Positions 24,704 through 32,625 of a stretch of 38,787 bases of DNA are shown here, piece after piece (position 1 is the first letter of the stretch; every line of letters starts with the position of its first letter). This DNA comes from an uncultured Bacilli bacterium. Its GTDB lineage: Bacteria > Bacillota_I > Bacilli_A > RF39 > UBA660. The translations under genes were made by a program, and so were the position numbers. A model generated the notes under the pieces. It had not been told where the DNA came from, did not search any database, and saw nothing but the letters and a program-made list of their open reading frames with translations. The stretch covers positions 1 through 38,787 of the forward strand of contig CASPVX010000006.1 of NCBI GenBank assembly GCA_949425575.1. Reading direction: 5' to 3'.

Positions 24704-25096
24704 ATGATAAAGGAATTTAAAGAATTTATTTCAAGAGGTAATGTTATCGATTTAGCTGTTGGTGTTATTATTGGTGGTGCCTTTGGAAAAATTGTTTCTT
24801 CTTTAGTCAATGATGTTTTAATGCCTCTAATAGGAATCTGTTTAGGTGGTCTTGATTTTAAAGGACTATCTTTAAGCATTGGTAATGCCAGTATTAGCTA
24901 TGGTGTATTCATCCAAAATATTGTTGATTTCCTAATAATCGCATTTTGTATTTTTATATTCATTAAATTAATTAACAAAATTACTAGAAGAGAAAACAAA
25001 AAAGAAAAAGAAGAAGTAAAAGAAGAAAAACAAAAATCTGAAGAAGTTATTTTATTAGAAGAAATAAGAGATTTACTTAAAAAGAAAAACCGTTAA
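24704..25096 (+). CDS. mscL: Large-conductance mechanosensitive channel MscL
   Basis: A 130-aa channel subunit that opens under osmotic downshock. It starts with the conserved [20 protein letters not shown], has TM1 ([23 protein letters not shown]) and TM2 ([22 protein letters not shown]), and ends in a charged Lys/Glu-rich cytoplasmic helix ([14 protein letters not shown]). Length and topology are typical. ATG follows AAGGAGG. It is the only plus-strand gene in this part, divergent from clpB and convergent with the YgjV gene. Confidence 0.97.
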
Positions 25097-25108
25097 TTTA
25101 AAACGGTT
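25081..25108 (-). terminator. Terminator for the five-gene operon (minus strand)
   Basis: AACCGT-loop-ACGGTT followed on the minus strand by TTTCTTTTT. It lies across the mscL stop codon. Confidence 0.65.
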
Positions 25109-25118
25109 CAAACTGTAC

Positions 25119-25153
25119 GAATAGAACTGCATAGTTCTATTCATTTTTATTTT
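25119..25153 (+). terminator. Terminator of mscL (plus strand)
   Basis: GAATAGAACT-GCAT-AGTTCTATTC, a perfect 10-bp stem, followed by ATTTTTATTTTT. It includes the stop codon of the convergent YgjV-like gene. Confidence 0.85.
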
Positions 25154-25658
25154 TAACATCATAACGAATTATTGAAATCACATTTGAAACAATTATGCAT
25201 AAACATGTAAATAAATTAGCATAGGCCATAAATATTATATAATATGGTATCCACAATACTAAGCTACCTAAATTAATTAATCTAATACGTTTTTCTTGCA
25301 TTTGAATAATTGTAATTGTATGTAAAATTGCACTACATAAAGGGATTATATCAATTAATGATTTAAATGTGATTATTGATGCTATCACAGATAAGCATAG
25401 ATAAAAACATATCAATTTCCATGTGATTGGTTTTCCCTTTAAAGCATAAATGTAATTGATAAGCGTTTGTATTCCAAACACGAATTGAATAAGTGCCCCT
25501 GCATATGCTCCTAGTAATAGTAATCCTGTAGCTCCGACCGCATTAGCCAACAAGAAAAATAATAAAATCTTTTTTCTTGTTTTGCATTGCATACTGATAA
25601 CATTTAATCCGCATGCTATTAGTGCTAAAATTTGTGCTAATATAAATGTAAAACTCAA
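25137..25658 (-). CDS. YgjV-family membrane protein
   Basis: A 173-aa protein of about six membrane segments with short loops (ILAQILALIACGLNVISMQ, LLLLGAYAGALIQFVFGIQT, NYIYALKGK). The pattern fits the YgjV inner-membrane family of unknown function. It starts at a TTG (25658) after GGAGG with 7-nt spacing. It is the last gene of the operon, 21 nt after the Nudix gene, and may be the membrane component of the pathway or only a passenger. Confidence 0.78.
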   Translation of the reverse strand: MSFTFILAQILALIACGLNVISMQCKTRKKILLFFLLANAVGATGLLLLGAYAGALIQFVFGIQTLINYIYALKGKPITWKLICFYLCLSVIASIITFKSLIDIIPLCSAILHTITIIQMQEKRIRLINLGSLVLWIPYYIIFMAYANLFTCLCIIVSNVISIIRYDVKNKNE

Positions 25659-25679
25659 TCTATCGCCTCCAAATTATAA

Positions 25680-26123
25680 TTATCTTAACTTATAACCGAA
25701 CTTTTCTATTTCTACTATTGCAATTTCAGATAATTTAGATCTCGTTAACTGGTTAATATCATAAAATTCAGCCCCTAATGAATCATCATTATTTTCATCT
25801 AATTCCATGTGATTCTTAATTTCATTATTATATGATTCTACTTTGTAAAAAACACCTTGATGATGTATTTGTTGAAGTTCTCCTTTATGTTCCCATTCTA
25901 TTGTTACGGAATTTGCATCAAATAACGTATATTTTGTAACATCAACCCCTACTTCTTCTTGTAATTCTCTAATTAAAGTTTGTTCAGGTGTTTCACCAAA
26001 CTCAATAGTTCCTCCTGGTAAATCTAGTTTATTTTTATACGGACCATTAGCTTTTTTTATTAAAACTATCTTGTCCTCATTTAAAATCAAGCCATATGCT
26101 CCTAAATGTCTAATTTGCTTCAT
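25680..26123 (-). CDS. Nudix hydrolase
   Basis: A 147-aa protein with a full Nudix box, GGTIEFGETPEQTLIRELQE followed by EVGV, near residues 36-58, which binds Mg2+ and cleaves a nucleoside diphosphate linked to another moiety. Substrate cannot be read from the sequence. It lies 16 nt after the radical-SAM gene in the same operon, so an activated nucleotide intermediate or by-product of that pathway is a plausible substrate (inference). ATG follows GAGGGG. Confidence 0.92.
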   Translation of the reverse strand: MKQIRHLGAYGLILNEDKIVLIKKANGPYKNKLDLPGGTIEFGETPEQTLIRELQEEVGVDVTKYTLFDANSVTIEWEHKGELQQIHHQGVFYKVESYNNEIKNHMELDENNDDSLGAEFYDINQLTRSKLSEIAIVEIEKFGYKLR

Positions 26124-26139
26124 ATAAATTTCCCCTCTC

Positions 26140-27279
26140 TTATCGTTTCAATTTTAACACATAATCATTCAGTCTAGCAACTTTTTTACTCGCAGTTGAC
26201 CATTCAAATTCTTGATAATTAACTCTACAATATTCACAAAATGGAATATCGCCATTCATAGCATCTATTGCTATCCATCCATCTATTATTTCATTTAATT
26301 CTATGTAATCGTCATCAGTGATTTCAAATTTTGTTCCATATTCATCATTTAATATTTCTATTAATAATGGGTAATAGCATTTTGAAATTTTTCCATTTCT
26401 TAAAAATCTACAAAATCTTCCCCCACATTTTTTATTAGCCTCGTAGCCCTCTTCATTTTTTAAGGTAGAAAGTGCTGTATGGAACTGATGAATAATAGTA
26501 GGTTCTTTAAAATAATCATCATTTATAAAATATTTTATGTGGTTTTCCTCAAGTCGATTAATAATTAAAGATAGTCTTTCCATCATTGGTTCATATAATG
26601 ATATGGATACAATTATATTATTTTCCCTTATGGCGTCCATCACTTTTTGACTAATTTGAGGTATTAAAATACCATTTGTAACTATTATTAATTCAGTGTC
26701 TGGCAAAGATGCTCTTGTCTTATTAAATATATTTACTATATCAGGATGAATTAATGGTTCACCACCTAATAATCTAAAACAAAGTAAAGTAAAATGCTTA
26801 TTAATTTTATCGAGATCTTTCTCCAAGTCAATAACATTTATAAAAGACGATTTGCATATATTAGAAAAATGTGAACATCCCTTACAATTCAAATTACAAT
26901 GATCAGTTATATTAGTTTCTAAATAATTTAAAATTGGTTTCCTATTTAAATCTAACATTACTAAAAAAGAATGTAAGTCTTCTAATGTTTTTATTTTTTC
27001 AAAGAAAATCTCCTCTCTAACCCAAAATACATTATTATATCCTTTTTCCTTCAAGTATTGGATTGCCGACCCTAAAAACATCGGTTTTTTGGCAATAATA
27101 ATATTAACTCCACAATCCAAGTCTATTTCATCTATATGAAAAATTGGTTTATGATTATACACTTCACTCGGAAGTTCAGCTTTATTATTCACAAAGGCGC
27201 TAATAGAGATTCCTTGCGATTCTAGGATTTTAGCTGCTTCACGAGCAAAACTACCTGTTCCAAAAATAATATTTTCCAT
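26140..27279 (-). CDS. Rossmann-like domain fused to a radical-SAM enzyme
   Basis: A 379-aa two-domain protein. Residues 1-100 begin ENIIFGTGSFAREAAKIL, a PglD-N-like nucleotide-binding fold. Residues 110-379 are a radical-SAM domain with CNLNCKGC (Cys128, 132, 135) binding the 4Fe-4S cluster and LLGGEPLIHPDI as the SAM-contact motif. More Cys occur at CGGRFCRF, ISKCYYPLL and PFCEYCRVN, like an abridged SPASM region for an extra cluster. It likely performs a radical modification of a metabolite or peptide. ATG 27279 has AAAGGTG six nt upstream and lies 11 nt after the preceding gene. Confidence 0.88.
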   Translation of the reverse strand: MENIIFGTGSFAREAAKILESQGISISAFVNNKAELPSEVYNHKPIFHIDEIDLDCGVNIIIAKKPMFLGSAIQYLKEKGYNNVFWVREEIFFEKIKTLEDLHSFLVMLDLNRKPILNYLETNITDHCNLNCKGCSHFSNICKSSFINVIDLEKDLDKINKHFTLLCFRLLGGEPLIHPDIVNIFNKTRASLPDTELIIVTNGILIPQISQKVMDAIRENNIIVSISLYEPMMERLSLIINRLEENHIKYFINDDYFKEPTIIHQFHTALSTLKNEEGYEANKKCGGRFCRFLRNGKISKCYYPLLIEILNDEYGTKFEITDDDYIELNEIIDGWIAIDAMNGDIPFCEYCRVNYQEFEWSTASKKVARLNDYVLKLKR

Positions 27280-27290
27280 TTGTCTCACCT

Positions 27291-28289
27291 TTAAATTTCC
27301 AATTTTTCTTGTTTATCCGATAATCTCTTAATTTCATCATAAAACTTAACATATAACCACTCATATTCATTTAAATGTTTCTCGGAAACCTTATATTCCT
27401 TTTCTACAATCATTTTTAATAAAGTCCAAATTCTATAAATAATAGTCCTTATAGTTTCATTTTCCGTTAATTTTTTATCATAACCTTTTAAAAAGCCTGA
27501 ACTTATATTTGGTGATATAGAATGAAAATAAAAAGTCATTAATTCATCACAATAATATAAATCAGAAAAGTCAACTATACCAACCACCTTATCATTATCA
27601 ATTATAAAATTTCCTTCCCATGCATCTACGTTAGTTAATGATGGTTGCAACACTTCATTCAAAATATTTTTAAATTTTTTTATTAGATTTAAAAGGTCGT
27701 CATAGGAAACATTATCAATTATAATATTCTTTTTTTTCGCTTCACAAATTAATATTTCAAAAAGTTTATTTACAAAATCATAGTTGCTATTAAACTGTAA
27801 TTCTGGCTTGCAAGGTAAAAAATAATTATCACTTTTTATCTTACATATTTTAGCACATATTTTTCCGATTTCCTCCTCAATTTTTTTCCGTGATGATTCA
27901 CTCATTTCTTTTTTTACATGTTCAAAAGATTGTCCCTTTATATAAGTCATTAAAAAATATGGTGTTTGATATATTTTCTTGCTATCGTCAAATAAAAGTA
28001 ATTTAGGAGATGGGATGTCTAATCGTTCTAATTTCTTTAACATCTTAGCTTCCCAAGAAATATTATTATTTTCAAATATCAACATTGTTTCGTTTTGCAA
28101 AGGAGCCACTTTTAAAACCATTTTATCTGTATTCGTTTCAATCAAATAAATGACACTTTTCATTCCCACATAAAGAATACCCACTTTAAAATCTTCTGAA
28201 TTTGGCGAAAAATAATTAGTTACTATTTTTTTTACCTCACTAATAGTAGGATAGCATTGCTGAAAATTATATAGTTTATTGTTGTTCAT
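27291..28289 (-). CDS. APH-fold phosphotransferase
   Basis: A 332-aa kinase of the aminoglycoside/choline-kinase fold. The N-lobe has MVLKVAPLQNE with the ATP-contact Lys and YFLMTYIKGQSF as hinge. The catalytic loop is NVDAWEGNF: Asp and Asn are kept, but the usual HGD His is replaced. Metal-binding DFSD follows in VVGIVDFSDLYYCDEL. The substrate is probably a small alcohol or sugar, not a protein. Its start overlaps the end of the upstream glycosyltransferase gene by 14 nt, so translation is coupled. Other readings are antibiotic kinase or LicA-like choline kinase; context favours a biosynthetic role. Confidence 0.85.
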   Translation of the reverse strand: MNNNKLYNFQQCYPTISEVKKIVTNYFSPNSEDFKVGILYVGMKSVIYLIETNTDKMVLKVAPLQNETMLIFENNNISWEAKMLKKLERLDIPSPKLLLFDDSKKIYQTPYFLMTYIKGQSFEHVKKEMSESSRKKIEEEIGKICAKICKIKSDNYFLPCKPELQFNSNYDFVNKLFEILICEAKKKNIIIDNVSYDDLLNLIKKFKNILNEVLQPSLTNVDAWEGNFIIDNDKVVGIVDFSDLYYCDELMTFYFHSISPNISSGFLKGYDKKLTENETIRTIIYRIWTLLKMIVEKEYKVSEKHLNEYEWLYVKFYDEIKRLSDKQEKLEI

Positions 28290-30309
28290 GAGTTTTAACC
28301 ATTACCTTTGGTTTTTGTTCTGGTTCCCAAACATATTTTTCACAAATTTGTTTTGTGAATTCATATTCTTCCATATCAACTGTTAGGTGGAATACGTTAT
28401 CAAAAGCATATTCATCAATTTTATTCATGAAATATTCTCTTATCCAATCTTTTATTTCAGCTATTTCTTTGTACATATAACCTTTTTTCTGACTATAGTG
28501 TATAAATCTTGAAATATCAATATTCATTTGCACTATCGCTATTGTATTGGTGGCATATCTGTCAATCAACACATTTGCCTTAAAAATTGTTACTCCAATT
28601 TTTTCGTTATTATAAAGGTAAATTTCATCCAAAAATGGTCTATATTGATCCCCCAAGTCAACAAACGTAATATCTTTTATAATAGCTTTTGTTGATAGCA
28701 TCTCAATTGCTTCGTCCATTAAACCTCCCTGTAATGAATTCCATAAAATTCCTATACAAGGTAATGTTATTTTTGGAAACTGTTCTTGATCTATTACTTT
28801 ATCTTTTAATAGCAGTTCTATTATTTTTAGCACATTGTCAATATCATGAAACTGACTAATATCGTCCGAAATAAATAATAGATTGATTATTTTATTAACT
28901 ACTCTTTGAATATCATCACAATAATAATTTTCTAAAATCCCTGTACTATAATCTCTCGCATATGTTTTTAAAACATGTGAAAGACTATTAAAAAATACTT
29001 TCTCCGCTTCGCTTTTATATTCAGTACCTAGGTTTAAAATTTGTTGATATACATCTTCTCCCCATATTTCAGTGCTAAAAAATCTTTCATCAAACTTTCT
29101 TCCAGTTAATGACATACCCCTTCTTTTAATATAATGATAATATTGGTTAGTGTCACAAACAAAACTATTAGATTTCAAACATAAATCCATCATAAACCCA
29201 GCATCTTCGTTGAACAGGCTTTCATTAAACCTAATACCCCTAATAGCATCCAACTTAAATAATTTGTCCCATACTGCTGTTGTAATCATTCCACTTAAAT
29301 GAGCGTTTAAAATTCCCTTTCTGCTGGTTGGTGTAGTAATAAGTCTTTCGTCATCTGATAAATTAATAATTTTACCATCTCTAGAGTGAACAAATGCATG
29401 TCCGCAGGAAATATCTGCACCGCTATTCAATGCGTTTTTTAACAAATTCTCATACATTGTATTGCAAATATAGTCATCCGCATCAACAAATCCTATATAA
29501 TCTCCTGTTGCCACATCTATACCTTTATTTCTAGCGTTAGATAAACCACCATTATTTTGACTTATAACTTTAATCCTTTTATCCTTCTTGGCTAATTCTT
29601 CGCATATTGTTAAAGAACCATCTGTTGATCCATCGTTTACTAAAATTATTTCTAAATTTTGATAACTCTGATTTTGGATACTTGTAACACACTTATTTAA
29701 ATATTCCTCAGCATTATATATAGGGACAACTACTGAAATCTTAATTCTATTTTGAACATTTAAATCTATAAATTGCGACAATTTTTCTTTCCATGGTTTA
29801 GCTGTATCAATGACCAAATGATACTTTTCGCTTAAATTATCATCATGGACATCATCAAGGTGGCAAAATTTAGCCATATCAATTTTACCAGCTCTTTCAA
29901 TATATCGTCTTTTCCTTAAATCATAATCTACTTCACTTTTTATAAGAATATCGCACTGAGAAAAAACCGCAGATTTTTCTAAAAAAAACCAATCAATCAC
30001 AACTGTTTCATCTGGATATTTTTTTACTTCATTTAAAATGATATTATCTATTTCTCTTTTAAAATTAAGATCCATTAAATGATTTTCTATACCTCTTCCG
30101 AAAAACGATTCAACAATATCTATATCTTTTTCAGGTTCAATGCCTAACTCATCACTCAAATATCGTTTTATTTTTGCTAATTTTCCATCTGCAATATATT
30201 TCTCGATAATTTTATCAACTTCTATATGTCTGAAGTTATATTTACCATTTAAATATCTTGAAATCTCTGTTTTACCAGAACCCACTTTACCTGTTATACC
30301 TATTATCAT
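28276..30309 (-). CDS. CoaE-like P-loop kinase fused to a GT2 glycosyltransferase
   Basis: A 677-aa fusion from ATG 30309 (SD AGGAGGG). Residues 1-185 look like dephospho-CoA kinase: IIGITGKVGSGKTEISRYL with the P-loop, VVIDWFFLEKS, and RKRRYIERAGK. From about residue 190 a GT-A glycosyltransferase starts (KISVVVPIYNAEEYLNKC), with LVNDGSTDGS and the DxD-type VDADD near 274, ending near 400. Residues 400-677 are unrecognised, mostly helical. The kinase half could phosphorylate an acceptor that the GT half extends; that is inference. I know of no standard enzyme with this order. It is the first gene of a five-gene operon. Confidence 0.88.
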   Translation of the reverse strand: MIIGITGKVGSGKTEISRYLNGKYNFRHIEVDKIIEKYIADGKLAKIKRYLSDELGIEPEKDIDIVESFFGRGIENHLMDLNFKREIDNIILNEVKKYPDETVVIDWFFLEKSAVFSQCDILIKSEVDYDLRKRRYIERAGKIDMAKFCHLDDVHDDNLSEKYHLVIDTAKPWKEKLSQFIDLNVQNRIKISVVVPIYNAEEYLNKCVTSIQNQSYQNLEIILVNDGSTDGSLTICEELAKKDKRIKVISQNNGGLSNARNKGIDVATGDYIGFVDADDYICNTMYENLLKNALNSGADISCGHAFVHSRDGKIINLSDDERLITTPTSRKGILNAHLSGMITTAVWDKLFKLDAIRGIRFNESLFNEDAGFMMDLCLKSNSFVCDTNQYYHYIKRRGMSLTGRKFDERFFSTEIWGEDVYQQILNLGTEYKSEAEKVFFNSLSHVLKTYARDYSTGILENYYCDDIQRVVNKIINLLFISDDISQFHDIDNVLKIIELLLKDKVIDQEQFPKITLPCIGILWNSLQGGLMDEAIEMLSTKAIIKDITFVDLGDQYRPFLDEIYLYNNEKIGVTIFKANVLIDRYATNTIAIVQMNIDISRFIHYSQKKGYMYKEIAEIKDWIREYFMNKIDEYAFDNVFHLTVDMEEYEFTKQICEKYVWEPEQKPKVMVKTHEQQ

Positions 30310-30546: not shown

Positions 30547-32625
30547 ATGGAACAAATAAATGTGGAAAAACAACATTTGAATGAAACGTTACAAAAATAT
30601 GATGAGTTTTTGTCTGATACCAAATTAGAATTTAAAAATGTATATAATTTGAATACAAGTAAAGAGGAGGCTCAAAAACGATACAATTTTTTAAAAAACA
30701 AAATAAAAACATTAGAAACCAACATTAATAGACCCTATTTTGCCAGAATTGATTTTGAATCAAACAAGGGAGAGAAAGATGTTTGCTATATAGGAAAAGT
30801 TGGTGTCTCTAATTATGATAATGAAATCGTTGTTGTAGATTGGCGCGCTCCTATTTCTTCGTTATATTATGATTCCAACATAGGAAATACTGAATATTTG
30901 GTCGACAATCATGCTATTACTGGTAAATTATTATTAAAAAGGCAATTTGAAATACAAAATAGAAAATTAATTAATTATACAGATGTTGATACAGTTAGTA
31001 ACGATGAAATGTTAAAGCCATATTTATCTAATAATGCCGATACTAGAACAAAAAACATCGTATCCACAATCCAAAAAGAACAAAATGAAATTATAAGGCA
31101 CAGTATTGCTAAAAATCTAATAATACAAGGTGTTGCTGGTTCTGGCAAAACTACAGTGGCATTGCATAGAATTGCATATTTAGCATATACATATAGAAAT
31201 ATTATAGATAATAATCAATATATGGTTATTGGACCAAATAAATTTTTTGTAAACTATATTTCTAATATTTTACCAGAATTAGATGTTAATGATGTTAAAC
31301 AATTTGATCTAGTTGAACTAACTGAAAACTTTATTGAAGAAAAACTAATACTAGAGGATGAAGATAATACTATCAATTTTTATTTAAATGGAAATCACTC
31401 TGATCTACCAAAAATAAAGACAAGTTTGAAATATAAAAAAATTATAGATAGTTTTTTTTATAATTATTACAAAGAAATTAAAAGTAAAAAACCTATAAAA
31501 ATAAATGATTTTACAATTATAGATTATTCAACAATAAAAAAATTATGGGATGAATGTTTAACAAGAAATTATGATAATTTAAATGCAATTGTACAAAGAT
31601 GCACCATTTTGCTACAAAATCATTTTGATGAACAAAAAGATTCTATTCTTACTAAACTTAATAAATTTATAGATGATAAGATTGATAGTGGAATAGATAT
31701 TAATGAATGCCGTAAAGAAAGAGAAAATATAAAAACAAAAATATTATCAAATAATAAACAAATTATTAAAAACTACTTTAAAAATATGTTTAAAAAAACC
31801 ACTGTCATATATTCATTATTAAAAAAAGAAATCAAAAATTATACCACTGATAATACTCTGATCTCAAGTTTAGATGATAAATTGTATTATGAAGATTTAA
31901 GTGCACTATTATATATCCATTATAAAATCTATGGCTTTGGAGATAATGATAAATATAGACATATTGTTATCGATGAAGCGCAAGATTATAACGACTTTAC
32001 TTTTTATGCATTAGCTACAATCTTTCCTAAAGCAAGTTTTAGTATATATGGCGATTTGGCACAATCAATCTATTCATATCGTAGCTTAAACGATTGGGAA
32101 AGTGTTAAAGAAAATGTTTTCAAACAAAATATGGAAATTAAAAAGCTTAACAAAAGCTATCGTACTACTATTGAAATTATGGAGGAAGCTAATAAAATTA
32201 ATAATTTTTTAAATCTTGAAGCCGCAAATGCTGTTATAAGACATGGCGAAAATGTACAATATATAAAATTAGATAATACAATCTCTATTCAAATACTCTT
32301 AGATGACTTACAAAAAAAAGGGTATAAAAATATAGCAATAATTTCAAAGGATCTTAAAAAATCAAAAGATATATATGACCAGCTTAGTAATGAATCAAAA
32401 ATAATTAATATTGTTTCTAAAAACTTTGAATATTCTGATGGTATTTATTGTATACCTTGCCATCTGTGTAAAGGTCTAGAATTTGATGCAGTTATTATAA
32501 ATGAAATTGACACATATAATATTGATTCTATACTTGATATGAAATTACTTTATGTTGCTATGACAAGAGCACTACATAATTTAGTAGTCACATATAAAAA
32601 TAATTTAATAAGCATATTACGCTAA
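30547..32625 (+). CDS. helD: HelD-type RNA polymerase recycling ATPase
   Basis: A 692-aa SF1 ATPase. The N-terminus is a coiled coil (to about residue 60) used by HelD to enter the RNAP secondary channel. HelD marks follow: RPYFARIDFES, CYIGKVGV and VVDWRAPISSLYYDS. Helicase motifs are GVAGSGKTTVALHRIAYL (Walker A), IVIDEAQDYNDF (Walker B), GDLAQSIYSYRSL, and KLLYVAMTRALHNLV. It releases stalled polymerase from nucleic acid. Slightly shorter than Bacillus HelD (about 775). ATG follows AAGGTGG. Confidence 0.9.
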   Translation: MEQINVEKQHLNETLQKYDEFLSDTKLEFKNVYNLNTSKEEAQKRYNFLKNKIKTLETNINRPYFARIDFESNKGEKDVCYIGKVGVSNYDNEIVVVDWRAPISSLYYDSNIGNTEYLVDNHAITGKLLLKRQFEIQNRKLINYTDVDTVSNDEMLKPYLSNNADTRTKNIVSTIQKEQNEIIRHSIAKNLIIQGVAGSGKTTVALHRIAYLAYTYRNIIDNNQYMVIGPNKFFVNYISNILPELDVNDVKQFDLVELTENFIEEKLILEDEDNTINFYLNGNHSDLPKIKTSLKYKKIIDSFFYNYYKEIKSKKPIKINDFTIIDYSTIKKLWDECLTRNYDNLNAIVQRCTILLQNHFDEQKDSILTKLNKFIDDKIDSGIDINECRKERENIKTKILSNNKQIIKNYFKNMFKKTTVIYSLLKKEIKNYTTDNTLISSLDDKLYYEDLSALLYIHYKIYGFGDNDKYRHIVIDEAQDYNDFTFYALATIFPKASFSIYGDLAQSIYSYRSLNDWESVKENVFKQNMEIKKLNKSYRTTIEIMEEANKINNFLNLEAANAVIRHGENVQYIKLDNTISIQILLDDLQKKGYKNIAIISKDLKKSKDIYDQLSNESKIINIVSKNFEYSDGIYCIPCHLCKGLEFDAVIINEIDTYNIDSILDMKLLYVAMTRALHNLVVTYKNNLISILR

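Follow-up and report, generated by a model that had tools for sequence, protein, structure and literature searches.

The radical-SAM enzyme BtrN (4m7t) belongs to butirosin making, and SpeY (7wzv) is, in line with the title of its PDB entry, the spectinomycin dehydrogenase. Among systems of another kind, the lic-type phosphocholine loci, which serve to decorate the cell surface, bring together an APH-fold kinase and a small membrane protein. Analyzing a 38,787-nucleotide stretch of DNA from an uncultured, small-genome Bacilli bacterium (hereafter, the window), we find a five-gene operon that shares features with both. Its third gene (gene C) encodes a protein with the predicted radical-SAM and Twitch fold, the CX3CX2C motif and four further invariant cysteines of SpeY and BtrN. 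Unlike these two, it has an extra N-terminal Rossmann-like domain, and we recognized no aminocyclitol pathway genes nearby. The kinase and membrane protein are also present, as in the lic-type loci, but we recognized no cytidylyltransferase or LicD with them.

Layout and conservation of the operon

Five complete ORFs (A to E) lie on the minus strand of the window. Gene A (28276..30309; 677 aa) starts with an ATG behind the Shine-Dalgarno sequence AGGAGG and encodes a P-loop (CoaE-like) kinase domain, a GT2 domain, a helical linker and an NDK-like domain. Gene B (27291..28289; 332 aa), encoding an APH-type small-molecule kinase, overlaps gene A by 14 nt. Gene C (26140..27279; 379 aa), encoding the Rossmann-like domain and the SpeY-like Twitch radical-SAM enzyme, starts with an ATG at 27279 or, alternatively, with a GTG at 27288. 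Gene D (25680..26123; 147 aa) encodes a Nudix hydrolase with a complete Nudix box, and gene E (25137..25658; 173 aa), starting with a TTG behind GGAGG, a YgjV-family membrane protein. The intergenic gaps are 2-11, 16 and 21 nt. Scanning for hairpins, we found one that resembles a terminator and ends in a T tail behind gene E (25087..25109, minus strand); the region holds three such hairpins on both strands against 1.2 by chance. The ORF and hairpin check thereby bore out an earlier note on this DNA, which had described five genes on one strand, spaced by no more than 21 nt, with one overlap and one terminator.

The flanks carry ClpC-type, MscL-type (by eye), HelD, DUF1003 and nuclease genes, and the chromosomal site is between the mscL (by eye) and DUF1003 genes. 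In or next to the operon, we recognized no initiating transferase, flippase/exporter, polymerase, ligase or NDP-sugar pathway gene, so that a surface-glycan product would have to draw on the pathways of the host for all of these steps. Short repeats that could serve as element ends were weak and chance-like around the operon. Searching for an empty site at the mscL flank, we noticed that the genes beside mscL vary strongly among relatives.

The closest relative is an uncultured Bacilli MAG (L021, contig CALVIX010000002, also listed as L140 and G674), in which each of the five genes is present, with identities of 60-82%. Its operon is accompanied by the same divergent HelD gene and is located between ftsZ and spoIIGA/sigE (named by eye). 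Genes A to D occur together in L142 (G588) and in L022/L023, two MAGs of near-identical sequence whose gene C is 42-44% identical to that of the window. L143 (G861) has a truncated gene C, and L144 (G704) has none. L021, L142, L143 and L144 represent four genera of the host's family. Comparing the window with L021 (NG86), we obtained dN/dS values of 0.11 (A), 0.13 (B), 0.19 (C), 0.13 (D) and 0.10 (E), figures that are rough because dS (1.5-2.5) is near or above saturation. Judged by these alignments, the operon genes are under purifying selection. The grouping goes beyond chance, since gene order is kept in relatives (gene C 42-61% identical) and dN/dS stays at 0.10-0.19.

The genes are therefore neighbors in relatives: all five in L021 and A to D in others, with intact orthologues of gene E only in L021 and in another, related operon that the host carries (L111). 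The loci of this five-gene type are not capsule or teichoic-acid loci and vary in their surroundings. Hence neither of the two outcomes that the earlier note had named as speaking against its reading came true. In the literature, we found no publication matching the full component set as a described pathway. A phage origin was rejected, as no operon-bearing relative occurred in viral contigs or phage records; a plasmid origin was rejected as well, as only the GT2 part matched plasmids. Divergent copies of the NDK-like domain had no plasmid matches.

Predicted enzymes of the operon

The P-loop domain of gene A (residues 1-180; 29770..30309, minus strand) scored below the CoaE cut-offs (PF01121, 23 bits vs 27; TIGR00152, 36.3 vs 65.55). 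Its Walker A motif, GITGKVGSGKTE, is intact in the window and in L021 and is altered in L023, L142, L143 and L144 (e.g. GNNKENKEK). The P-loop being degraded in several orthologues, the two kinases of the earlier note are no constant of the system. Outside its two kinase-GT2 fusions, we found no separate CoaE gene in the host assembly (G000), an absence that may be an assembly gap because the assembly is 79% complete. The GT2 domain (residues about 190-420; 29050..29742, minus strand) matched PF00535 over the cut-off (5.5e-40). The earlier description of a kinase-glycosyltransferase fusion omitted the third, C-terminal domain.

Gene B matched the APH family well above the cut-off (PF01636, 5.1e-13; 49.8 bits vs 23.2), and its catalytic D and N (TNVDAWEGN) are kept in all orthologues. 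The Pfam matches of gene D (Nudix, 4.2e-16, box pattern present), gene E (Imp-YgjV, 4.6e-20) and gene C (radical SAM, 1.8e-10) were also over the cut-offs. The first 114 residues of gene C matched a Rossmann-like domain (Z 11.7 to 3nkl, a UDP-quinovosamine dehydrogenase entry), with a PglD_N score of 15.8 vs a cut-off of 23.4. As the CoaE and PglD_N scores lie under their cut-offs, "CoaE-like" and "Rossmann" denote resemblances and not memberships. At the fold level, the family names given by the earlier note (CoaE-like, as a resemblance only, GT2, APH, radical SAM, Nudix and YgjV) were right.

The AlphaFold2 model of gene C (52 sequences) reached a pLDDT of 93.7. Its best structure match was SpeY (Z 23.9, 251 residues, rmsd 2.4), followed by SuiB (Z 13.7), BtrN (13.2) and viperin (12.2). 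The alignment of the 52 sequences has 17 invariant columns. These include C128, C132 and C135 of the CX3CX2C motif as well as C285, C301, C348 and C351, a C-terminal four-cysteine auxiliary cluster site whose spacing resembles that of BtrN. On this model, gene C is a Twitch-type radical-SAM enzyme closest to SpeY; oxidation of a sugar or cyclitol hydroxyl is its predicted activity.

The C-terminal domain of gene A (28330..28761, minus strand; about 145 residues; motif DNVFHLT) had no Pfam match, including none to NDK (PF00334) at E 10, and a sequence search against solved structures gave no PDB match. The AlphaFold2 model, built from four sequences, is of moderate confidence (pLDDT 66.3, pTM 0.67). 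Foldseek and VIA-align both assigned the model to the fold of nucleoside diphosphate kinases, with a top Z of 12.3 over 123 residues; the best 50 VIA rows were all NDKs or NDK-domain proteins, and the predicted fold is like that of the Mimivirus NDK 3gpa and other NDKs. Profile comparison without structure (hhalign) aligned only the catalytic stretch, matching IR...NxxHxTD to IRGD...NLIHGSD (P 0.016; motif IR...NxxHxT/SD). It puts the histidine of the window's DNVFH, which is kept throughout the family alignment, on the catalytic histidine of NDK. In contrast to NDK, the domain is fused to GT2 or other enzymes, and the lysine of IKPD in the first strand is replaced, the strand reading ILWN when aligned by eye on the predicted fold. 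Because the structure is predicted, the profile aligns the catalytic stretch only and the lysine strand differs, we consider the NDK fold likely and the activity a candidate. The host also encodes a canonical NDK gene.

Other loci with the NDK-like domain

Within the genus, 7 of the 44 genomes searched carry the NDK-like domain, and within the family 15 of 386; it is rare outside. In L101-L103 and L141, it forms a protein of its own, and the P-loop kinase, the GT2 and the radical-SAM enzyme are likewise encoded by separate genes. The second operon of the host (L111; G000:C13, 7377-11381) comprises a Nudix gene, a standalone NDK-like domain, a 306-aa protein, a kinase-GT2 fusion that passes the CoaE cut-off, and YgjV. 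The 306-aa protein is HipA-like by eye only, and Pfam and NCBIfam gave no match; L125 encodes a fusion of the NDK-like domain with a related protein. In L124 (4905-8644), the fusion partner of the domain is a radical-SAM enzyme, and a YcaO gene adjoins, possibly as part of a peptide-modifying cluster. It adjoins a carbamoyltransferase gene in L147 and lies within a capsule-type cluster in L113.

In four further loci (L112, L126, L145 and L146), which occur in small-genome Bacilli, the domain lies beside NeuB/NeuA-type CMP-nonulosonate genes. Besides the NDK-like domain, these cassettes share with the operon a Nudix gene (L112, L126, L146) and HelD (L112, L126), and they have another radical-SAM enzyme in L112, L145 and L146. 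They differ in their sialic-acid type pathway, in a different putative transferase and in lacking a kinase-GT2 fusion. A protein of about 490 aa, a possible transferase, is encoded in L112, L126 and L146.

A domain that is partly standalone, partly fused and found with so varied a set of partners may serve as a module for phosphotransfer or for nucleotide binding. Outside any Pfam family, it turns up repeatedly in small-genome Bacilli, in the company of glycan, radical-SAM and YcaO genes, and together with the SpeY-like enzyme it provides a handle for finding such cassettes.

Possible products and the HelD neighbor

We tentatively favor, at somewhat less than even probability, the reading that the five genes form a mobile accessory cassette by which a single sugar is attached to a host glycan and modified there, most likely at the cell surface. 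Serotype-changing or sialylation cassettes would be the model for such a role. The GT2 domain of A would move a sugar from an NDP-sugar to an acceptor, and C would oxidize (or epimerize) one hydroxyl of the sugar or acceptor by Twitch radical-SAM chemistry like that of SpeY and BtrN. B, joined in this lineage by the P-loop domain of A, would phosphorylate this sugar or one of its precursors. The NDK-like domain could move phosphate via its histidine or handle the nucleotide freed by the glycosyltransferase; D may hydrolyze an NDP-linked intermediate or by-product, and E may carry a small molecule, either precursor or product, across the membrane. The building of a sugar compound suggested by the earlier note, together with phosphorylation, would fit; the modeled radical-SAM enzyme is closest to a sugar-alcohol dehydrogenase.

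The surface-sugar reading draws on the conserved gene set under purifying selection, on the SpeY-like gene C with its invariant cysteines, and on the NDK-like domain in NeuB/NeuA-type cassettes and the capsule-type cluster L113. It also draws on the more distant relatives of gene C (23-34% identity), which often adjoin GT2, other glycosyltransferase and polysaccharide genes: their direct neighbors (n=63) include 10 radical-SAM, 9 GT2 and 6 other glycosyltransferase-like genes. Mobility is suggested by the differing positions, mscL/DUF1003 in the window vs ftsZ/spoIIGA in L021. Against a surface glycan stand the missing envelope and NDP-sugar pathway genes noted above. Moreover, one glycosyltransferase with several kinases fits a soluble product as well, and the contexts of L124 and L147 are not obviously those of surface glycans.

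Next after this reading, and rather unlikely in our estimate, the operon would make a small soluble glycoside, such as an aminoglycoside-like or phospho-sugar natural product. GT2 would join two units, the SpeY-like enzyme would make a ketone, the APH kinase would phosphorylate the product, as a pathway step or for self-protection, and E would export it. That C is closest to an enzyme of the spectinomycin pathway, and that BtrN follows among the nearer matches, is consistent with this, as are the APH kinase, the lack of envelope genes around and the finding of the cassette as a unit in different places. However, we recognized no aminocyclitol synthase, aminotransferase or dedicated exporter with the operon, and the distant relatives of C lie in polysaccharide loci.

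The gene divergent from the operon (30547..32625, plus strand) encodes a HelD-like RNA polymerase recycling motor (NF041464, 404.1 bits vs a cut-off of 419; 7.5e-88 to the HelD chain of 6wvk), whose membership in the system is uncertain. We know of no place for HelD in surface glycans. HelD adjoins or lies inside seven related loci (L021, L101, L102, L112, L125, L126 and L141). A close HelD is present in 9 of the 44 genus genomes, and 5 of these are among the 7 that carry the NDK-like domain (Fisher p 0.002; family sample p 0.003), values that are a guide only because the genomes are related and the sets small. Checking HelD genes not chosen by the NDK-like domain, we found a Nudix gene near 8 of 25 loci (6 of 23 after merging near-identical ones), with p between 0.0002 and 0.009 according to how dense Nudix genes are taken to be. 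HelD genes of this family (window 30547-32625, L164-L168, L202-L221) often lie by Nudix, CYTH, radical-SAM, MTA-phosphorylase-like and ITPase-like genes, named by eye except for Nudix.

These data bear on an improbable third reading, in which the operon makes a nucleotide-like molecule acting on RNA polymerase and the neighboring HelD protects the host polymerase. The P-loop and NDK-like domains would build the di- and triphosphate, and the Nudix hydrolase would clear toxic by-products. HelD protects RNA polymerase from rifampicin (PMC12802891, in B. subtilis; PMC8655204), and in many organisms HelD is present in more than one copy, with a link to antibiotic resistance for some of the copies (PMC8655204). 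The co-occurrence of HelD with the NDK-like domain and the radical-SAM and nucleotide-type neighbors of other HelD genes point the same way. Yet this reading leaves the GT2 domain without explanation, and the degraded P-loop and absent NDK lysine count against it. The orthologous operons L022/L023 and L142-L144 have no adjoining HelD, many HelD genes of the family adjoin housekeeping genes, and the related genomes are not independent. More improbable still is the wider proposal that cassettes with the NDK-like domain and a resident HelD form a mobile class making nucleotide- or sugar-based RNA polymerase inhibitors, with HelD as built-in immunity; it is this proposal, and not the likeliest reading, that the HelD data feed.

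An anti-phage defense system with viperin-like chemistry and nucleotide kinases is very improbable: weak matches of C to prokaryotic viperin profiles and some neighbors named by eye (a TrlF-like gene by L111, a solo cytosine methyltransferase by L022/L023, conjugation genes by L102) would fit, but C scored 34.2 bits vs a cut-off of 180 (NF038283), its Z is 12.2 to viperin vs 23.9 to SpeY, and no other component convincingly reaches a defense family.

The neighborhoods described above raise the possibility, open to experiment, that HelD is connected with biosynthetic operons of the accessory kind. The N-termini of the HelD proteins are short throughout this family.
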